DNA of 64,000 nucleotides from Thiemannella venezuelensis (GTDB taxonomy: Bacteria; Actinomycetota; Actinomycetes; Streptosporangiales; Streptosporangiaceae): assembly GCF_014203605.1 (NCBI RefSeq), contig NZ_JACHJJ010000002.1, positions 186,001-250,000 on the forward strand. The letters are read 5' to 3'. The notes under the pieces were generated by a model that saw only the letters and a list, made by a program, of their open reading frames with translations, did no database searches and was not told the DNA's origin. Shown here in pieces: positions 35,026-43,600 of this stretch. Made by a program: the position numbers and the translations under genes. Within the stretch, counting starts at the first letter, position 1. Every line of letters begins with the position of its first letter.

Positions 35026-36402
35026 TCAGGCGATGAGCCGCTCGACGGCGTCGATGCCGAAGTACACCAGGAAGACCAGCGCGACCACCCAGAGCAGCCA
35101 GGGGAGCCGCCGGGCCCGGCCGGTCGCCGCCTGGACGACCGTGTAGGCGATCACGCCCGCGCCGACCCCGTTGGTGATGCTGTAGGTGAACGGCATCAGC
35201 ACGATCGTGAGGAACGCCGGGATCGCCATGGTCAGGTCGTCCCAGGGGACGTTCTTGGCCTGCGTCATCATCAGCGCGCCCACCAGCACCAGCGCGGGCG
35301 CCGCCGCGGCGGCCGGGACGACCGTCGCGACCGGCGTGAACAGCAGCGTCAGTGTGAACAGCCCGCCGGTGACCAGGGCGGCCAGACCGGTCCTGGCCCC
35401 CTCGCCGACCCCGGCCGCCGACTCCACGAAGACCGTGCCCGCCGAGGCGCTGGAGAGCCCGCCGATCGCCCCGGCCACCCCGTCGACGGTCAGGATCGCG
35501 CCCAGCCGCGGGACCCGGCCCTGCTCGTCCACCAGCCCCGCCTCGTCGCTGACGCCGATGATGGTGCCCATCGCGTCGAAGAACCCCGACAGCACGAGAG
35601 TGAACAGCACGACCGTCGCGGTCACCGCCCCCGCCCTGGCGAACCCGCCGAACAGGTCGACCTGGCCGATCAGCCCGAAATCCGGCGCCGCCACCAGCGC
35701 GTCCGGCACGCGCGGGACCACCACGCCCCAGGACGCCGGGTCGATCGCCGCGACCGAGTTCACCACCACCGCCAGCACGGCCGTGACCGCTATGCCGATC
35801 AGGATGGCCGCCGGGGTCCTGCGCACGTACAGGACGATCATCAGCAGCAGCCCGAGGCAGAACAACGCGACCGGCCAGCCCGACAGGTGCCCGGTCGTGC
35901 CCAGTTGCACGGGCGTGCCCTCGCCCCGCGCCACGAACCCCGCGTCCACGAGGCCGATCAGCGCGATGAAGGCGCCGATCCCCACGCTGATCGCGTGCTT
36001 GAGCGCGAGCGGGATGGCGTTCATGATCAGTTGCCGGAGCCCGGAGACGGCCAGCAGCACGATCACCAGGCCCTCCAGCACGACCAGCCCCATGGCCTGC
36101 GCCCAGGTCATGTGCGGCGCGGCCTGGTAGGCGACCACCGCGTTCAGCCCCAGCCCCGCCGCGAGGCCGAACGGCGCGTTGCCCGCCACCGCCATGAGGA
36201 CCGTGCCGACCGCCGCCGCCAGGATGGTGGCCGTGGTGAGCTGCGGCACCGACAGCTTCGCCCCGGTGACGTCGGTGGCCCCGCCCAGGATGATCGGATT
36301 GAGCAGGATGATGTAGGCCATCGCCATGAACGTGGTCAGGCCGCCCCGCACCTCCCGGCCGACGGTCGTGCCCCGCGCCGACAGCTCGAAGAACCGGTCC
36401 AC
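35026..36402 (-). CDS. NCS2-family purine permease (AzgA-like)
   Basis: 458 residues and 12-14 TM helices. AzgA/NCS2 signatures: RGGLTTFMAMAYIILLNPII, NAPFGLAAGLGLNAVVAY, FFDAMGTIIGVSDEAGLVDE, and GLSSASAGTVFVESAAGVGE near helix 10. It should import a purine base such as xanthine, hypoxanthine, adenine or guanine with protons. It lies 35 bp behind the molybdenum hydroxylase gene on the same strand, a sensible purine-salvage or purine-breakdown pair. Confidence 0.92.
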   Translation of the reverse strand: MDRFFELSARGTTVGREVRGGLTTFMAMAYIILLNPIILGGATDVTGAKLSVPQLTTATILAAAVGTVLMAVAGNAPFGLAAGLGLNAVVAYQAAPHMTWAQAMGLVVLEGLVIVLLAVSGLRQLIMNAIPLALKHAISVGIGAFIALIGLVDAGFVARGEGTPVQLGTTGHLSGWPVALFCLGLLLMIVLYVRRTPAAILIGIAVTAVLAVVVNSVAAIDPASWGVVVPRVPDALVAAPDFGLIGQVDLFGGFARAGAVTATVVLFTLVLSGFFDAMGTIIGVSDEAGLVDEQGRVPRLGAILTVDGVAGAIGGLSSASAGTVFVESAAGVGEGARTGLAALVTGGLFTLTLLFTPVATVVPAAAAAPALVLVGALMMTQAKNVPWDDLTMAIPAFLTIVLMPFTYSITNGVGAGVIAYTVVQAATGRARRLPWLLWVVALVFLVYFGIDAVERLIA

Positions 36403-36437: not shown

Positions 36438-38660
36438 CTACCCGCTCAGCGCGATGTCATGGGGGCGGATCGGCACCCGGGGCAGCTCCAGCCCCGTCGC
36501 GGCCCGTACCGCGGCCGCCACCGCGGGGGTGGACGAGAGCGTGGGCGGCTCGCCCGCGCCGCGCAGGCCGTACGGCGCGTGCGGGTCGGGGTTCTCCAGG
36601 ATCGAGACCTTCATCGGCGGCATGTCCAGGACGGTCGGGATCAGGTAGTCGGTGAACGACGGGTTGCGCACCCTGCCGTCCGAGACGACGACCTCCTCCA
36701 TCAGCGCCAGTCCCAGCCCCTGCGCCGAGCCGCCGTGGATCTGGCCCTCCAGCGCGACCGGGTTCAGGATCCTCCCGACGTCCTGCACCGCCGCCAGCTC
36801 CACCACCTTGACCAGGCCGAGCTCGGTGTCCACGTCCACCACCGCCCGGTGCACGCACAGCGCGAGCTGGGTGTGCGAGTCGCCCTGCCCGGTCACCGGA
36901 TCCATCGGGAAGGTCGGCCGGTGCCGGTAGACCCGGGTCTCCTCGACCGGGCCGCTCCGCTCCAGGGCCTCCGCCAGCGTCGCCCCGGCGGCCCGCAGCG
37001 CGTCCAGCCGCTCCCGCACCGCCTCGCACGCGGCCCGGACCGCGCCGCCGGTGACGTACGACTGCCGGGAGGCCGAGGAGGAGCCCGCCGAGCCCACCGC
37101 CGTGTCGGCCGCGGCCACCGTCACCCGCTCGATCCCCAGCTCCGTCCGGGCGATCTGCTCCTGGACGGTCACCAGCCCCTGCCCGACCTCGGCCGCCGCG
37201 GTGTGCACGAGCACGTGCGGCTCGCCGCCGAGCAGCTCCACCCGGACCCGGGCGGTGGAGTAGTCGTCGAAGCCCTCGGAGAAGCAGATGTTCTTGATGC
37301 CCACGCCGTACCCGACGCCGCGCCGCACGCCTTCGCCGCGGGTGGCCTGCGAGACGCCGCCGGGCATGTCCAGCAGGCCGCCGGAGGCCTCGGGCGGGAG
37401 CGGCATCGCGGCGAGCTCGCGGAGCATGTCCGCCAGCGGGGCGGGGGAGTCGATCACCTGCCCGTTGGCCAGCCGCGACCCCTGGGAGACGGCGTTGCGG
37501 ACCCTGATCTCCACCGGGTCCAGGCCGCAGGCGGCGGCGAGCCTGTCCATCTGCGACTCGTAGGCGAAGCACGCCTGCACCGCGCCGAAGCCGCGCATCG
37601 CGCCGCACGGCGGGTTGTTGGTGTAGACGCCGTAGGCGTCGACGCGGACGTTCGGGACCACGTACGGCCCCACGCCCAGCGAGGCGGCGTTGCCGACCAC
37701 GGCCGGGGAGGTGGAGCAGTAGGCCCCGCCGTCCAGCAGGATCTCCGCGCGGACGTAGACCAGCCTCCCGTCGCGGGTCGCGCCGTGCTCGTAGCGCATC
37801 CGGGCCGGGTGCCGGTGCACGTGCCCGAAGAACGACTCCTCCCGGCCGTAGACGATCTTCACCGGGCGGCCGGTGCGCAACGCCAGCATGCACGCGTGCA
37901 CCTGCATGGACAGGTCCTCGCGGGCGCCGAACGCGCCGCCCACCCCGGCCAGCGTCAGCCGTACCTTCTCCGCGGGCAGCCCGAGGCACGGCGCGATCTG
38001 GTCGCGGTCCACGTGCAGCCACTGGGTGGCGACGAACAGGTCCACCCCGCCGTCCTCGGCCGGTACGGCCAGGCCCGACTCCGGCCCGAGGAAGGCCTGG
38101 TCCTGCATGCCGACCTCGTACTCCCCGGTGACCACGACGGGGGCCTCGAGGGCCGCGGGGCCGAGGCCCACCCGGACCGGCTGGTGGCGCAGCACGTTGC
38201 CGGAGCCGTGGACCGCGGGGCAGTCCGGGTCGAAGGCCGCCCGGCGCGGATCGGTCACCGCCTCGCGGACCTCGTAGTCCACGACGACGGCCCGTGCCGC
38301 CCGGCGGGCCCGCTCGGGATGGTCGGCGGCGACCAGCGCGACCGGCTCGCCCTGGTAGCGGACCTGGTCCACGGCGAGCACCGGCTGGTCCCTGCGCTCC
38401 AGGCCGTAGAACTTCTCGCCCGGCACGTCCTCGTGGGTGAGCACGGCGAACACGCCGGGCATCGCCAGCGCGGGGCCGATGTCGATCGAGCGGATCCACG
38501 CCGACGGGTGCGGGCTGCGCAGGGTCACGCCCCAGATCATGTCGGCGAGGTACAGGTCGGAGGAGTAGGCGAACTCGCCCGTCACCTTCAGCGTCCCGTC
38601 GGGACGCGGCGCGCTCTCCCCGACGCCCCGGCTGCTGCGCCGTGTCTCGGTTCCGCTCAT
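36438..38660 (-). CDS. Xanthine dehydrogenase-type molybdenum-binding subunit
   Basis: 740 residues, the normal length of a separate Mo subunit. Opening GVGESAPRPDGTLKVTGEFA; Moco-binding segments TLAGVGGAFGAREDLSMQVH, CGAMRGFGAVQACFAYESQM, AAAEVGQGLVTVQEQIARTE and the final YGLRGAGEPPTLSSTPAVAA with catalytic Glu. The neighbouring purine permease suggests xanthine or hypoxanthine oxidation. FAD and 2Fe-2S subunits, which the reaction needs, are not on either side: the 562-bp region upstream holds no such gene. They must be encoded elsewhere, or an operon has been split. Confidence 0.92.
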   Translation of the reverse strand: MSGTETRRSSRGVGESAPRPDGTLKVTGEFAYSSDLYLADMIWGVTLRSPHPSAWIRSIDIGPALAMPGVFAVLTHEDVPGEKFYGLERRDQPVLAVDQVRYQGEPVALVAADHPERARRAARAVVVDYEVREAVTDPRRAAFDPDCPAVHGSGNVLRHQPVRVGLGPAALEAPVVVTGEYEVGMQDQAFLGPESGLAVPAEDGGVDLFVATQWLHVDRDQIAPCLGLPAEKVRLTLAGVGGAFGAREDLSMQVHACMLALRTGRPVKIVYGREESFFGHVHRHPARMRYEHGATRDGRLVYVRAEILLDGGAYCSTSPAVVGNAASLGVGPYVVPNVRVDAYGVYTNNPPCGAMRGFGAVQACFAYESQMDRLAAACGLDPVEIRVRNAVSQGSRLANGQVIDSPAPLADMLRELAAMPLPPEASGGLLDMPGGVSQATRGEGVRRGVGYGVGIKNICFSEGFDDYSTARVRVELLGGEPHVLVHTAAAEVGQGLVTVQEQIARTELGIERVTVAAADTAVGSAGSSSASRQSYVTGGAVRAACEAVRERLDALRAAGATLAEALERSGPVEETRVYRHRPTFPMDPVTGQGDSHTQLALCVHRAVVDVDTELGLVKVVELAAVQDVGRILNPVALEGQIHGGSAQGLGLALMEEVVVSDGRVRNPSFTDYLIPTVLDMPPMKVSILENPDPHAPYGLRGAGEPPTLSSTPAVAAAVRAATGLELPRVPIRPHDIALSG

Positions 38661-39222
38661 CCGGCCAGTACATCAAGCCGGTCGGGGAGGCGCCACGGCG
38701 CACGCCGCGGAACGCGGGACCCGGTGCACGGCGGCCGGGCGTCCCGGCGTCATGAACGCCGGCGTGCGGAGAAGGTTTTCCCGGCGGGTGGGCGGCGAAT
38801 TCGGTCACTTTTGCGAAAAGGCTGTGACGGATTATCGCCTGCTCTGCCCCTGTGGATTAAGAATGGCTGTGAGATGAGAGTGGGCTCTCAGGGGAGCCGG
38901 GCCGGCCCGGCCGTCCGGCAGGAGGGCCGATCTCTTTTTCGCCGCCGGTCCAGAATAATAATTGGTCGTGCTTTCCCGGGCTTATCCGCTCGTCCGCGGC
39001 GGCGGGCGGGCGAAGGCGCCCGGCCCGTCCCGCCCGGTCTCCGGGCGGGGTGCGGGCGCTCCATGCCGCCTCGCTCCGCCGGAGCGAGGCCCCGAGCGCC
39101 CGGACCTCTGCGTTCACACAGCTCGCAGTGGGAGCCGTCGTGCGGCGGGCGCCGGGATCCTCTGCTCGTCACGGTGCCGGGGGACCGGTGGCGCATGCCG
39201 CGGGGGTGGGCCGGAACCCGGC
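38661..39222. other. Non-coding region with hairpins downstream of the secreted peptide gene
   Basis: 562 bp without a gene I can support. It carries the promoter region of the Mo-hydroxylase gene, an AT-rich stretch (38800-38970) and two hairpins: GGCTC-6-GAGCC near 38882-38898 and a 10-bp perfect stem at 39068-39090 with a 3-nt loop, which may end the peptide transcript arriving from 39223. Confidence 0.5.
39068..39090 (-). terminator. Hairpin downstream of the secreted peptide gene
   Basis: GCCTCGCTCC pairs perfectly with GGAGCGAGGC around a GCC loop, 133 bp past the peptide stop codon. No T-tract. Probable terminator. Confidence 0.45.
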
Positions 39223-39369
39223 TTACCAGGGGCCGTTCCAGGCGGAATGCTGAACAGTGGACCCAGAAGGGGCAGACGAATCGGCGGTGGCGGTCGTAGC
39301 ATTGGCCGTGACGGCCACTGCGGCCGTAAACATAACGGCGAGGGCAGACAAGGCGAGACGTCGGCGCAC
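39223..39369 (-). CDS. 48-residue secreted pro-peptide, candidate signalling peptide
   Basis: Too short for usual ORF calling. GTG start at 39369 with AGGAG exactly 6 nt upstream; stop TAA at 39223. Residues 1-29 are a textbook Sec signal: MRRR, the hydrophobic stretch LALSALAVMFTAAVAVTA, then NATTATA with an A-x-A cleavage site. The predicted released peptide is residues 30-48, DSSAPSGSTVQHSAWNGPW. Codon third positions are less GC-rich than in neighbours. Divergent from an XRE-TPR regulator across 54 bp. Pro-peptide genes beside HTH-TPR receptors are the hallmark of RRNPP quorum sensing (PlcR/PapR, NprR/NprX) in Firmicutes. The gene looks real; the signalling role is inference. Confidence 0.72.
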   Translation of the reverse strand: MRRRLALSALAVMFTAAVAVTANATTATADSSAPSGSTVQHSAWNGPW

Positions 39370-39423
39370 GGGAGACTCCTGTCGTGGGTTCTGCTATCTA
39401 GTCAATATCTTTCAAGGAGTAAC
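39370..39423. promoter_or_regulatory. 54-bp divergent promoter of the peptide/regulator pair
   Basis: An AT-rich island (CTATCTAGTCAATATC at 39393-39408) between the two ribosome sites. Both promoters must overlap here, with -10-like TATCTA on the plus strand and TAGATA or GATATT on the minus strand. The regulator binding here could control both genes at once. Confidence 0.5.
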
Positions 39424-40716
39424 GTGGCCGGTCAAGACTTAGTCGGGCAGCGCATCAAAACCGTCCGCCGCCAGCGCGGACTCTCTCAGGCACAGCTGGC
39501 TCATCCCGAACTCTCCGACAGCTACGTCTCGCTCATTGAGAGTGGCAAACGTACACCAACTCCGGCGGTTCTGGAGTTGCTGGCCCAGAAGCTCGACTGC
39601 TCTCTCACCTATCTGGTGAACGGCGTGACGGCCGAGCAGATGCGGGAGATCGAGCTCAACATGAGCTACGCGCAGCTGGCGCTGGACAACGGAGAGGTGG
39701 CCGAGGCCCGCACCCGCTACGCGGAGCTGCTCGCCGACGGCGGGCTCGCCGGCCTGCCGAAGGTCAGGCAGGACGCCGAGTACGGGCTGGCACTGGCGAC
39801 CGAGGGATCCGGCGACCTGGAGGGCGCCCTCGCCCTGCTGTACGGCCTGAGCCGGAACGGGGCGGCGGACATGACGCCCGAGCGGCACGTCGCCGTGGCC
39901 GTGGCGCTCTGCCGGTGCCACCGCGAGCAGGGCGACCTGACGCGGGCGGTGGAGGTGGCCGAGCGGATCCTGGGCGGCGCGGTGCGCCCGGCCTGGACCG
40001 AGGAGCTGCTCGCGCTGGCCTCGCAGCTCCTGACCGCCTACATCGAGCGCGGCGACCTCCTGCGCGCCCAGAACTTCACCGCCGAGCTGCTGGCCGCCGC
40101 CGAACTGCTCGGCACACCGCACGCACTGACCCTCGCACACTGGGGAGCGGGGATCGTCGCGGTGGAATCCGGGCGTGGCGAGGAGGCGGTCGCGCACATC
40201 GAGCGGGCCGTCACCATCCAGTCGGAGTTCGGCGACGCCGGCCGTCTGTGGCGGCTGCGCGGAGACTACGCGCAGCTCATGCTGATGGTGCGGCCCGCCG
40301 AGGCCCAGGCCTGGCGCGACCTGCTGCTCCGGGTGGAGGTCGAGCTCGCGGAGAGCCCGGTCACCCGGACGGCGAGGATGCGCTGCGCCATCAACCTCGC
40401 CCACGCCGAGCTGCTGCTGGGTCAGCCGGACCGGGCGGTGCAGCACATCCGCACGGTGTGCGACATGCTGGACGGGGTGTCGAAGGACCTCCAGACCAAG
40501 GTCCGGCTCCTGGCCGGTCAGACCATGGCCGAGCTGGGCAGGCACGACGAGGCGCTGCTCGAGCTGGCGACGGCGGCGCGGCTGCTGGACGAGGTGCCCG
40601 CCACCCGGCTGACCGCCCACTCCTGGCTGACCGCCGCGGAGATCCTGGAGCGGATCGACGAGCCCGAGCGCAGCGTGGCCGCCTACCACCGGGCGCTGGC
40701 CTGCGTCGGCCTGTAG
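39424..40716 (+). CDS. XRE-HTH/TPR transcriptional regulator, candidate peptide receptor
   Basis: 430 residues from GTG 39424 (AGGAG 4 nt upstream). XRE HTH at residues about 6-62: LVGQRIKTVRRQRGLSQAQL, then LSDSYVSLIESGKRTPTPAV. The remaining 365 residues are TPR-like helical pairs (AQLALDNGEVAEARTRYAEL, ALATEGSGDLEGALALLYGL, QLLTAYIERGDLLRAQNFTA, AELGRHDEALLELATAARLL, RIDEPERSVAAYHRALA), giving 9-10 repeats as in RRNPP peptide receptors. Leu6 is a TTA codon (39439-39441), which in streptomycetes makes a gene dependent on bldA. The HTH-coding part has lower GC3 than the TPR part. copC follows 83 bp downstream on the same strand. Confidence 0.85.
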   Translation: MAGQDLVGQRIKTVRRQRGLSQAQLAHPELSDSYVSLIESGKRTPTPAVLELLAQKLDCSLTYLVNGVTAEQMREIELNMSYAQLALDNGEVAEARTRYAELLADGGLAGLPKVRQDAEYGLALATEGSGDLEGALALLYGLSRNGAADMTPERHVAVAVALCRCHREQGDLTRAVEVAERILGGAVRPAWTEELLALASQLLTAYIERGDLLRAQNFTAELLAAAELLGTPHALTLAHWGAGIVAVESGRGEEAVAHIERAVTIQSEFGDAGRLWRLRGDYAQLMLMVRPAEAQAWRDLLLRVEVELAESPVTRTARMRCAINLAHAELLLGQPDRAVQHIRTVCDMLDGVSKDLQTKVRLLAGQTMAELGRHDEALLELATAARLLDEVPATRLTAHSWLTAAEILERIDEPERSVAAYHRALACVGL

Positions 40717-40799: not shown

Positions 40800-41429
40800 A
40801 TGAAGACTTCCCCTTTCGCGGCCGCCTTCGTGCTGCTCGCCGCCCTCGTCCTCGGTACGGCCCCCGCCTCGCCTGCCTTCGCCCACGACACGCTCAAGAG
40901 CAGCGACCCCGCCAAGGGGGAGAAGGTCGAGAGCCTGGAGGAGGTGAAGCTGACGTTCAGCGCCGGGGTGCGCTTCCCCAACGTGGTCCTGCGCGCCGGG
41001 GACGGCACGCCGTACCACGACGGCAAGCCGGCCGCCGACGGCGCGGTGGTGCGGCAGAAGGTCAAGGCGGGCCTCCCCCCGGGCGAGTACGTCATCGCCT
41101 ACCGGGTGGTCTCCTCCGACGGCCACCCGATCGAGGGCGAGATCCCGTTCACCCTGGCCGGGGACCCGGCGCCGAGCGCCACCTCGTCCGGGAGCGCCAC
41201 CCCGGACGAGAGCCCCGCACCGGAGGGCTCCGGCACCACCGCCCCGTCGGCCGCTGCTCCGTCGGCCACCGCCCCGTCGACCACGGTGCCGCTCACCCCG
41301 GCGGCGGACACGGCGGGAGCGGAGGGCTCCGGCGGCGGGGTGCCCGGCTGGGCCTGGCTCGTGGTCGGCGGCCTGACCGGCGTCGGCATCGGGATGTTCT
41401 TCAGCATGCGCAACAAGAAGCAGCCATGA
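40800..41429 (+). CDS. copC: CopC-domain copper-binding protein, membrane anchored
   Basis: 209 residues from the ATG at 40800. A signal peptide ends at AFA before His1 of the mature protein (AHDTLKSSDPAKGEKVESLE). His at the mature N-terminus and the later SSDGHPIEGEIPFTLAG are the copper ligands region of CopC. A Ser/Thr/Pro linker leads to a C-terminal TM helix (WAWLVVGGLTGVGIGMFFS). It should bind Cu(II) outside and hand it to the overlapping CopD-like membrane protein. A -10-like TAGCCT 10 nt before the start suggests its own promoter. Confidence 0.93.
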   Translation: MKTSPFAAAFVLLAALVLGTAPASPAFAHDTLKSSDPAKGEKVESLEEVKLTFSAGVRFPNVVLRAGDGTPYHDGKPAADGAVVRQKVKAGLPPGEYVIAYRVVSSDGHPIEGEIPFTLAGDPAPSATSSGSATPDESPAPEGSGTTAPSAAAPSATAPSTTVPLTPAADTAGAEGSGGGVPGWAWLVVGGLTGVGIGMFFSMRNKKQP

Positions 41430-43600
41430 GCGCCGCGGAGAAGGGCCGGAGCGACCGGACCGCCAAGCCGCCGCGGAGCGGCGCCGGCCGGACCGGAGCA
41501 GGACAGGGCAGACCGGGGCAGGGCAGACCGGGGCAGGGCAGGCCCGGACAGGGCGGATCCCGGCAGGGCGGGAACGAGCCGGCGGTCGCCGGCCCCGCGC
41601 GGGACGGGACCGCCCGGACGGTGCGGCTGGCGCTGGCCGTGGCCGCCGCCGCCGTCGCCGCCCTGGTGGCCGCGATGGTCGCGACCGGCGCCGCGAGCCC
41701 CCGGATCATCCCCGGCCTGTCCGACGAGGGCGCGCTCACCCGCTGGGGGCTGCCGCTGGCCAAGCTCACGATGGACGCGGCCGGCGTGCTCACCGTGGGC
41801 GCGCTGCTGGCCGCCGCGGTCTTCCTCCCCAGCGACAAGGGCCTGCTCGGCAAGGCCGCCCTGGCCTATGTCAGGGCCGCCTCCTGGCTCGCCCTCGTCT
41901 GGGCGGGCGCCGCGGTCGCCACGATGGTCTTCAGCCTGTCCGACGCGCTCGGCCTGCCCGTCGCCGACGTGCTCGGCGGAGACGAGCTCACCAGCTTCGC
42001 CGGCCAGGTCTCCCAGGGCATCGCGCTCACCCTGGTCGTGCTGTTCTCGCTGGCGCTCGCGCTGTTCGCCCGGGGGGCGATCACCGCGGGGGCGGCCGGC
42101 GGCCTGCTCGTGCTCGCCCTGGCGACCCTGCTCCCGCCCGCGCTGACCGGCCACTCGGCCTCCTCTCCCAACCACGACCTGGCCACCACCGGCGTCGCCG
42201 TGCACCTGGTGGTCCTCGCGCTCTGGGTGGGCGGGCTCGCCGTGCTCTGCGCCCACGCGCTGCGCGGGCAGGCGCAGCTGGAGGTCGCCGCCGCCCGGTT
42301 CTCCTCCATGGCGCTGTGGTGCTTCGTCGGCGTCGGCCTGTCCGGCCTGTTCAGCGTGGTGGCCCGGCTGACCTCGGCCGCCGAGCTGTTCACCTCCGCG
42401 TACGGCCTGCTGCTGCTGGCCAAGACCGCCGCGTTCGCGCTGCTCGGCGCGGCCGGCTGGTGGCACCGGAGGCGGACCCTGCCCGCGCTGGCCTCGGGCG
42501 GGAGCGGGGCGTTCGTGCGCTTCGCCTCCGGCGAGATCCTCATCATGTTCGCGGCCGTCGGGCTGGCCGTCGCGCTCTCCCGCACCGCACCGCCCCCCGC
42601 GGTCCTCCCGGTCGACCGGGCCTTCGAACTGCTCGGCTACTCCATGCCGCCGGAGATCTCCCTGGCCAACCTGGCCTCCCTGTGGTGGTTCGACCTGTTC
42701 TCCGGCACGCTGGTCGCCCTGCTCGCCGGTCTCTACCTCGCGGGCGTGCTCCGGCTCGCCAGGCGGGGCGACTCCTGGCCGTGGGGCCGTACGCTCGCGT
42801 GGTTCACCGGCGTGCTGATCCTGCTGGTCGCCACCCAGAGCGGTGTCGCCCGCTACGCCAAGGTGCTGTTCAGCGTGCACATGGCCGAGCACATGACGCT
42901 GTCCATGCTGGTCCCGATCTTCCTGGTGCTCGGCGCCCCCGTCACCCTGGCGCTGCGCGCGCTCCGGCCGGCCGCCCGCCGGGGGGACCGGGGCCCCCGC
43001 GAGTGGCTGACCGTGATCCTGCACAGCGGGTTCGTGCGCTTCGTCGGCCACCCGGCGATCGCCACCGCCGTCTTCGTCGTCTCCACCTACGCCCTCTACT
43101 TCACCCCGCTGTTCACCTCCGCGATGGAGGAGCACCTGGGCCACATCGCGATGACGGTGCACTTCCTGCTCAGCGGCTGCCTGTTCTTCTGGGTGATCAT
43201 CGGGGTGGATCCGGCGCCGCACCGGCTCCCGCACGTGGCACGGCTGATCCTGCTGTTCGTCACCATGCCCTTCCACGCGTTCTTCGGGATCGCGCTGATG
43301 AACATGGGCACCGTGCTCGCCGCCGACTGGTACGACCAGCTCGGCCGTACCTGGGGCGCCTCCTCCCTCGCCGACCAGCAGGACGGCGGGGCCATCGCCT
43401 GGGGCTTCGGGGAGATCCCGACGCTGATCGTGCTGATCGCGCTGGCCTTCCAGTGGTGGCGCGACGACGACCGCCGGGCCCGGCGCGCCGACCGCAGGGC
43501 CGACGCCGCCGCGGCGCGCACCGGCGGCAGCGGCGACGCCGAGCTCGACGCGTACAACGACTACCTCGCCAAGCTCGACAGGCGCGATCGCGGGGAGTAG
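41426..43600 (+). CDS. CopD-CtaG fusion membrane protein for copper handling
   Basis: 724 residues starting in an ATGA overlap with copC. A disordered N-terminus has GRPGQ repeats from a 15-bp DNA repeat (41507-41555). The CopD domain (about 65-390) includes LTGHSASSPNHDLATTGVAV and HLVVLALWVGGLAVL. The caa3_CtaG domain (about 400-690) includes LFSVHMAEHMTLSMLVPIFL, VGHPAIATAVFVVSTYALYF, EHLGHIAMTVHFLLSGCLFF and MPFHAFFGIALMNMGTVLAA, rich in likely copper-binding His/Met. Such fusions with CopC import copper and deliver it to cytochrome oxidase or other cuproenzymes. Confidence 0.93.
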   Translation: MSAAEKGRSDRTAKPPRSGAGRTGAGQGRPGQGRPGQGRPGQGGSRQGGNEPAVAGPARDGTARTVRLALAVAAAAVAALVAAMVATGAASPRIIPGLSDEGALTRWGLPLAKLTMDAAGVLTVGALLAAAVFLPSDKGLLGKAALAYVRAASWLALVWAGAAVATMVFSLSDALGLPVADVLGGDELTSFAGQVSQGIALTLVVLFSLALALFARGAITAGAAGGLLVLALATLLPPALTGHSASSPNHDLATTGVAVHLVVLALWVGGLAVLCAHALRGQAQLEVAAARFSSMALWCFVGVGLSGLFSVVARLTSAAELFTSAYGLLLLAKTAAFALLGAAGWWHRRRTLPALASGGSGAFVRFASGEILIMFAAVGLAVALSRTAPPPAVLPVDRAFELLGYSMPPEISLANLASLWWFDLFSGTLVALLAGLYLAGVLRLARRGDSWPWGRTLAWFTGVLILLVATQSGVARYAKVLFSVHMAEHMTLSMLVPIFLVLGAPVTLALRALRPAARRGDRGPREWLTVILHSGFVRFVGHPAIATAVFVVSTYALYFTPLFTSAMEEHLGHIAMTVHFLLSGCLFFWVIIGVDPAPHRLPHVARLILLFVTMPFHAFFGIALMNMGTVLAADWYDQLGRTWGASSLADQQDGGAIAWGFGEIPTLIVLIALAFQWWRDDDRRARRADRRADAAAARTGGSGDAELDAYNDYLAKLDRRDRGE

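Follow-up and report, generated by a model that had tools for sequence, protein, structure and literature searches.

A candidate exported-peptide gene divergent from an HTH-TPR regulator gene recurs across actinomycetes

A 64,000-nucleotide stretch of the Thiemannella venezuelensis genome (contig NZ_JACHJJ010000002.1, positions 186,001 to 250,000; here, the window) carries a small gene for a predicted secreted peptide, divergent from the gene of a regulator with an XRE-type HTH domain and TPRs. We found that this gene pair is conserved among relatives, that its members stay together in more than one arrangement, and that certain residues of the regulator differ with the type of peptide beside it. 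We consider it probable that the two genes make up a peptide signaling system of the PlcR-PapR kind, in which an exported peptide pheromone would return to the cell, bind a cytoplasmic receptor, and thereby act on regulation.

The gene pair in the window

The peptide precursor gene lies at positions 39223 to 39369 on the minus strand and has 48 codons plus a stop, with a GTG start. Its product, MRRRLALSALAVMFTAAVAVTANATTATADSSAPSGSTVQHSAWNGPW (48 residues, read from the minus-strand ORF 39369-39223), has three arginines, then a hydrophobic stretch, an AxA-like site (TATA), and a 19-residue tail; the signal peptide was judged by composition and the cleavage site was placed by eye. The codons of the predicted exported tail, DSSAPSGSTVQHSAWNGPW, occupy 39226 to 39282 (minus strand), and the last five residues, WNGPW, match the pattern WxxPx-stop. 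An AGGAG ribosome-binding site is found six bases 5' of the GTG (39376 to 39380, minus strand), and most relatives of the gene have a GGAG-like sequence at the equivalent place. The genome has a single copy of the peptide gene, whose reading frame is unbroken among the close relatives of the window.

The gene of the regulator, also called the receptor below, encodes 430 residues and runs from a GTG start at 39424 to the end of its stop codon at 40716 on the plus strand, with an AAGGAG ribosome-binding site at 39414 to 39419 (plus strand). Its start was set at 39424, where the homologues begin; a longer mechanical ORF begins at 38962. The divergent intergenic region (39370 to 39423) contains the two ribosome-binding sites; promoters that overlap, and an operator, presumably lie there as well. 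It measures 54 bp in the window, and the corresponding gap is 47 to 63 bp across 79 homologous loci. The first-pass annotation had described a 48-codon signal-peptide gene with an AGGAG site and a 19-residue tail, 54 bp from an XRE-HTH and TPR regulator and divergent to it, and this description is borne out by the coordinates and by the HTH_3 and TPR matches.

Domain search placed the HTH, which is nearly invariant in the family, at residues 11 to 64 (39454 to 39615, plus strand; HTH_3, E 5.7e-11), with matches to several TPR families downstream of it. In the AF2 model (mean pLDDT 89.7, pTM 0.80), the HTH is followed by a predicted TPR superhelix of about nine helix pairs at residues 70 to 430 (39631 to 40713, plus strand). 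The first-pass proposal depended on a TPR groove fold, and it came through this prediction; an N-terminal XRE-type HTH followed by a TPR superhelix is also a feature typical of RRNPP(A) transcription factors. The modeled fold allows peptide binding, with which it is compatible and of which it is no proof on its own. The nearly invariant HTH beside a fast-changing TPR part suggests, from sequence comparison, a conserved DNA target and a drifting peptide specificity. Synonymous-site conservation in the first 75 codons of the receptor gene pointed to no operator, and neither operator nor regulon was found. In 79 loci, the synonymous codon choice at receptor codons 16 to 30 is more mixed than is usual in these genomes, and an overlap of the peptide promoter with the start of the receptor coding sequence may be the reason. 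A paralogue in the same genome (G000:C26:73116-74420, L002) also has HTH and TPR parts, with 32% identity to the receptor, and no divergent peptide ORF was seen beside it.

Several neighboring genes in the window were named by eye. CopC- and CopD-like genes lie downstream of the receptor (40800 to 43600, plus strand), and upstream the minus strand carries a xanthine-dehydrogenase-like gene (36438 to 38660), with a homologue in the flanks of 41 of the 80 homologous loci described below, and a nucleobase-permease-like gene (35026 to 36402). In an Actinomadura-like related group (L143, L145), a hydroxyisourate-hydrolase-like ORF is divergent from the receptor; with the two minus-strand genes, this makes purine catabolism a recurrent theme near the receptor.

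Conservation of the peptide gene

From a scan of genome contigs we took the best 80 of 118 receptor relatives, nearly all Streptosporangiaceae by title. A strict criterion was applied to them, namely, a divergent ORF of 35 to 65 residues, starting 30 to 80 bp from the regulator, with K or R near its start and a hydrophobic core. Such an ORF is present at 79 of the 80 loci, compared to 36 of 8,000 sequences made by dinucleotide shuffling of these upstream regions and none of the 80 loci on the other strand; the exception, without a divergent signal-peptide ORF, is L075. An adjacent small propeptide gene with a predicted export signal, as seen at these 79 loci, is a feature typical of RRNPP(A) systems. 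The first-pass annotation had proposed to look beside each homologous regulator for a short divergent ORF with a signal peptide and a variable C terminus, and had named the lack of a neighboring peptide ORF or of a conserved frame as signs against the pair. All but one of the 80 regulators have the neighbor, and the frame is conserved.

Over eight groups of relatives, dN/dS was 0.33 to 0.66 in the signal part and 0.62 to 1.22 in the tail, the pattern expected for a precursor with a quickly changing tail. A control set of 33 other HTH-TPR loci gave one match to the strict criterion (L149, itself with a peptide ending in Cys-Cys [CC]); as this set mixes paralogues with lineages already seen without a peptide, it is partly circular, and the shuffles are our main control. 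Part of the co-occurrence reflects common descent, because the neighborhood is conserved anyway in shared genera, with the CopD-like gene (name by eye) downstream of the receptor in 78 of the 80 loci.

Peptide endings and spread of the pair

At 64 of the 80 loci the peptide has CC directly at the stop codon, which was seen in none of 8,000 shuffles. The window and its 15 closest loci (L006 to L020) have no CC; instead, WxxPx-stop is found in 14 of the 16 aligned members (exceptions, L015 and L016). A FastTree phylogeny of 107 receptors places the window within a 17-row set (support, 99) nested inside CC-bearing rows, and we thus read the W/P ending as derived in the clade of the window. The W/P-rich C terminus asked about at first pass therefore holds for this clade, but not for most relatives, which end in CC. 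CC-ending signal-peptide ORFs are scarce elsewhere: in 575,628 bases of loci, ten were off the expected place. Nine of them are the expected ORF counted from an earlier start codon, and the tenth (L047) adjoins a second receptor copy and is divergent from it. In the 64-kb window there is no CC-ending signal-peptide ORF. In variant peptides of L230 and L166, residues follow the CC. The Spongiactinospora locus L047 (1352 and 1359) carries two receptors in tandem, and the second has a divergent CC peptide to itself.

The pair had been expected in Streptosporangiales; it occurs there, but it is not confined to that order and is broader than supposed. CC peptides adjoin related regulators in eight family codes and lie downstream in several loci without a divergent copy. 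In these breadth searches, four candidates were scored per genome phylum-wide, and 8 and 11 in class searches; with so few scored, absent matches mean little. In family f21, the receptor is present in 21 of the 22 genomes of its order, with a divergent CC peptide at 20 of the 21 loci, the remaining locus having only 235 bases upstream. A nifH test for Frankia in this family gave no match over the cutoff in 9 of 9 genomes. Divergent CC peptides also occur in f22 (L120), f11 (L137, L138), f16 (L141, L178), and f29 (L142), and beside a more remote receptor of f1 genus g37 (L149). In f20 genus g56 (probably Streptomyces), receptors scoring 347 to 439 bits were found in 7 of 26 genomes, and three of the seven have a divergent CC peptide (L229, L232, L233). 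Where none is divergent, a CC peptide is found downstream in f28 (L280, L282, L284, L303), f16 (L278, L279), and f20 (L231), as well as in two of five Streptomyces plasmid loci examined (L205, L206); the L205 peptide is annotated as hypothetical protein WP_008741297.1. A further CC peptide lies downstream at four or more f21 loci. Joint function is likely for partners that remain neighbors through such changes of arrangement.

The second f21 CC ORF (..GGSDFCC, ..GGSLYCC) at L132, L133, L136, and L187 is downstream of the receptor, about 1.6 kb from the receptor start. No peptide was found at L075, L163 to L165, L222 to L224, L228, L281, L283, and L299, nor at L204, L207, L208, L234, L243, L248, L255, L285 to L295, and L298; L235 has a signal-like ORF without CC. 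The loci L139 and L203 offered less than 400 bases upstream for the peptide search.

Fifteen more remote receptors outside the class of the window came from a phylum-wide search (396 genomes, four candidates each) and a follow-up in one class (27 genomes). At 11 of these 15 loci there is a divergent ORF of 25 to 33 residues with a signal-like stretch and a tail (NWPKH, GWPRH, NWPHH, GYPWPK, SFPWGGT), compared to 7 of 3,000 shuffles, under a criterion fixed after the first example had been seen and with start codons that are guesses. The endings are WPKH, FPWPK, and similar.

A Streptomyces-like genus has further HTH-TPR regulators of a remote kind (110 to 141 bits) from which a small secreted ORF is divergent (L239, L240, L241, L244, L245, L246). 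These ORFs read ..ANAGPARA followed by a variable tail, unlike the CC type, and may be a further peptide family. At L242, a co-directional signal-peptide ORF ending ..ASIEWP lies upstream of a remote HTH-TPR gene.

Receptor residues that follow peptide type

Three sites in the receptor separate CC-type receptors from that of the window: residue 201 in helix 4A (40024 to 40026, plus strand), T in the former and Q in the window; residues 237 to 241 in helix 5A (40132 to 40146, plus strand), A...WN and L...WG, respectively; and residue 274 in helix 6A (40243 to 40245, plus strand), mostly N and R, respectively. Across families, W240 does not vary among CC-type receptors, and T201, A/S237, and N241 hardly vary; N241 is found in 45 of 47 rows, among which one receptor appears twice. 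None of 13 W/P-clade rows has N241, the usual residues there being Q201, L237, and R274; the clade of the window lost the CC ending and the receptor signature together. In the AF2 model these residues sit on the first helices of TPR pairs 4 to 6, and in TPR proteins it is the first helices that line the groove. Ten of the 14 columns that switch between CC and W/P receptors are in A helices, which also hold the larger share of residues, and we claim no significance for this count. Across the whole family, conservation of A and B helices showed no clear difference (entropy, 1.71 versus 1.80).

We scored CC peptides within 1 kb of 146 nonredundant receptors with at least 0.9 kb on both sides. N241 and a CC peptide were both present in 93, N241 without CC in 10 (of 103 N241 receptors), CC without N241 in 7, and neither in 36. 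Counted by the signature residues T201, A/S237, W240, and N241, a CC peptide accompanies 89 of 92 receptors with all four, 9 of 16 with three, 2 of 11 with two, and 0 of 27 with one or none; the rows are related to one another, and some of these data had served to choose the signature, so the counts are a description and not a P value.

A finer match was noticed between receptor residue 241 and peptide position -3, the residue before CC. Of 110 receptor-CC peptide pairs, 103 have N241, and 1 of these has His at -3, compared to 5 of the 7 that lack N241; the three E241 receptors, from three distant lineages, all have ..HCC peptides. For His at -3, residue 241 tops the 430 receptor columns (Fisher P = 1.0e-6; next best, 2.8e-4), in a post hoc comparison on the same data in which the link was noticed. 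A tree-aware test gave four of five independent pairs in favor (sign test, P = 0.125), five pairs being too few for this test to reach significance, and in a mutual-information scan with coarse residue classes (57 pairs; peptide positions -3, -4, and -5) column 241 ranked 52nd for -3. Within Acrocarpospora, L063 has E241 and AFHCC and its relatives have N241 and AFMCC, YIYCC, or YIFCC; judging by these sequences, the change is recent. A contact between residue 241 and position -3 is possible, and the matched changes in both partners suggest that peptide and receptor touch. The related group L255 and L285 to L295 has E241 receptors and no CC peptide within 1 kb; since every E241 receptor for which a peptide was found has one of the ..HCC type, these receptors may have an orphan peptide gene elsewhere.

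Proposed mechanism and alternatives

In the signaling reading, the product of the small gene would be a precursor, exported by means of its signal peptide. The tail would be trimmed, and the short C-terminal tail, or its last residues, would be the signal. An oligopeptide importer would bring the short peptide back into the cell, for which the 15 SBP_bac_5 proteins over the cutoff in this genome indicate capacity only. The peptide would then seat in the inner groove of the TPRs, with its C terminus near residues 201-241-274, and alter DNA binding by the nearly invariant HTH, first at the shared 54-bp promoter region and then at other targets; the receptor would in this way report on neighboring cells. 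Of the RRNPP-like signaling pair put forward at first pass, the gene pair, its conservation, its association across arrangements, and the receptor residues specific to peptide type have been substantiated, and the model has the fold looked for, whereas the signaling role itself is still one that we infer.

It is rather unlikely that the peptide is the ligand of the receptor without being a cell-cell signal, the receptor sensing precursor or tail within the cell that made it, which could serve, for instance, to monitor secretion capacity or stress. Such self-sensing would be simple, since both genes share one promoter region, and it would do without the release and uptake that signaling has to assume. 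However, dN/dS indicates stronger constraint on the signal part than on the tail, and the charged start, hydrophobic core, and AxA-like end are kept over very remote loci. We give little credence to the idea that the exported peptide is an end product, such as a metal or thiol binder, an antimicrobial, or the precursor of a modified peptide, with the HTH-TPR protein controlling its gene without binding it. The Cys-Cys end would suit metal or thiol chemistry, and the CopD-like gene accompanies the Streptosporangiaceae loci, but f21 has other neighbors (an aminotransferase and an EamA-like transporter), the stretches that were read revealed no modification enzyme, the receptor residues track the peptide type, and the clade of the window dropped Cys-Cys yet kept the pair. 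That the frame is open across a promoter region by chance has a negligible probability, for although it is short and unannotated at the locus in one named chromosome-sized record (itself almost without annotation), the shuffle counts, dN/dS, the scarcity of CC ORFs elsewhere, the remote loci, and the receptor signature contradict it.

On the signaling reading, soil actinomycetes would use small-peptide talk of a kind so far described in Bacillus and its kin, and the presence, in many families of antibiotic producers, of a cytoplasmic receptor paired with a gene-encoded peptide would offer a new handle on development and metabolism. A peptide signal is thought to enter Streptomyces through BldK, and the CC and WxxPx peptides would be a candidate class for old peptide-signal observations such as this. 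The peptides are short, can be synthesized, and can be tested by addition to cultures, and the residue-level covariation points to precise mutants. More speculatively, and with doubt on our part, Actinomycetota may share an old peptide language that spans the phylum and is peculiar to it, made of HTH-TPR receptors and exported peptides that end in Cys-Cys (most Actinomycetes families seen), WxxPx (the clade of the window), or bare WPKH/FPWPK (other classes). Cys-Cys could then serve as a redox gate: a vicinal disulfide would stay closed outside the cell until, once the peptide is taken up, cellular thiols open it, and binding would thus be reserved for imported peptide. Signaling in Actinomycetota is usually described, as in one published account (PMC10075063), through enzyme-made small molecules.

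Comparison with known peptide-signaling systems

The first-pass annotation knew of no characterized actinomycete case with this layout, and we found no HTH-TPR/peptide pair in Actinomycetota in literature titles and abstract openings, a scope with bioRxiv and most subscription journals outside it. PlcR-PapR of the Bacillus cereus group shares the XRE-type HTH followed by TPRs and a small exported propeptide gene adjoining. Profile A2 matches PlcR over the HTH and first TPRs (positions 2 to 182, E 1.4e-11), which makes it the best match other than engineered TPR proteins, four of which rank above it; in Foldseek, the PlcR-PapR7-DNA complex ranks fifth (E 8.6e-7), behind LGN chains. PlcR is shorter (280 to 293 residues in the chains listed), compared to about nine TPR pairs in the receptor of the window. 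The gene of PapR lies downstream, and its active form is a short peptide from the C terminus, whereas the system described here has a divergent or convergent peptide gene and Cys-Cys or WxxPx endings.

NprR-NprX and Rap-Phr of Bacillus share a nine-repeat-like TPR superhelix and differ in phylum and peptide endings. VIA-align matched NprR (5dbk; Z 23.4, rmsd 6.2, 348 aligned), NprR-NprX (4gpk; Z 20.5), and Rap-CSF (4gyo; Z 23.0); as eukaryotic TPR proteins score equally or higher (up to Z 25.8), these matches speak for the fold only. Rgg-SHP and ComR-ComS of Streptococcus and AimR-AimP of phages combine a cytoplasmic HTH and repeat receptor with an adjacent short exported peptide, and the system of the window may work alike. 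The ComR HTH is among the sequence matches of the profile, and we know of no sequence kinship between the peptides of these three systems and those found here. HTH and TPR are both very common. The likeness seen here is one of architecture and sequence profile, and by this analogy the pair of the window appears to work like an RRNPP system, whose testable architectural features it has.
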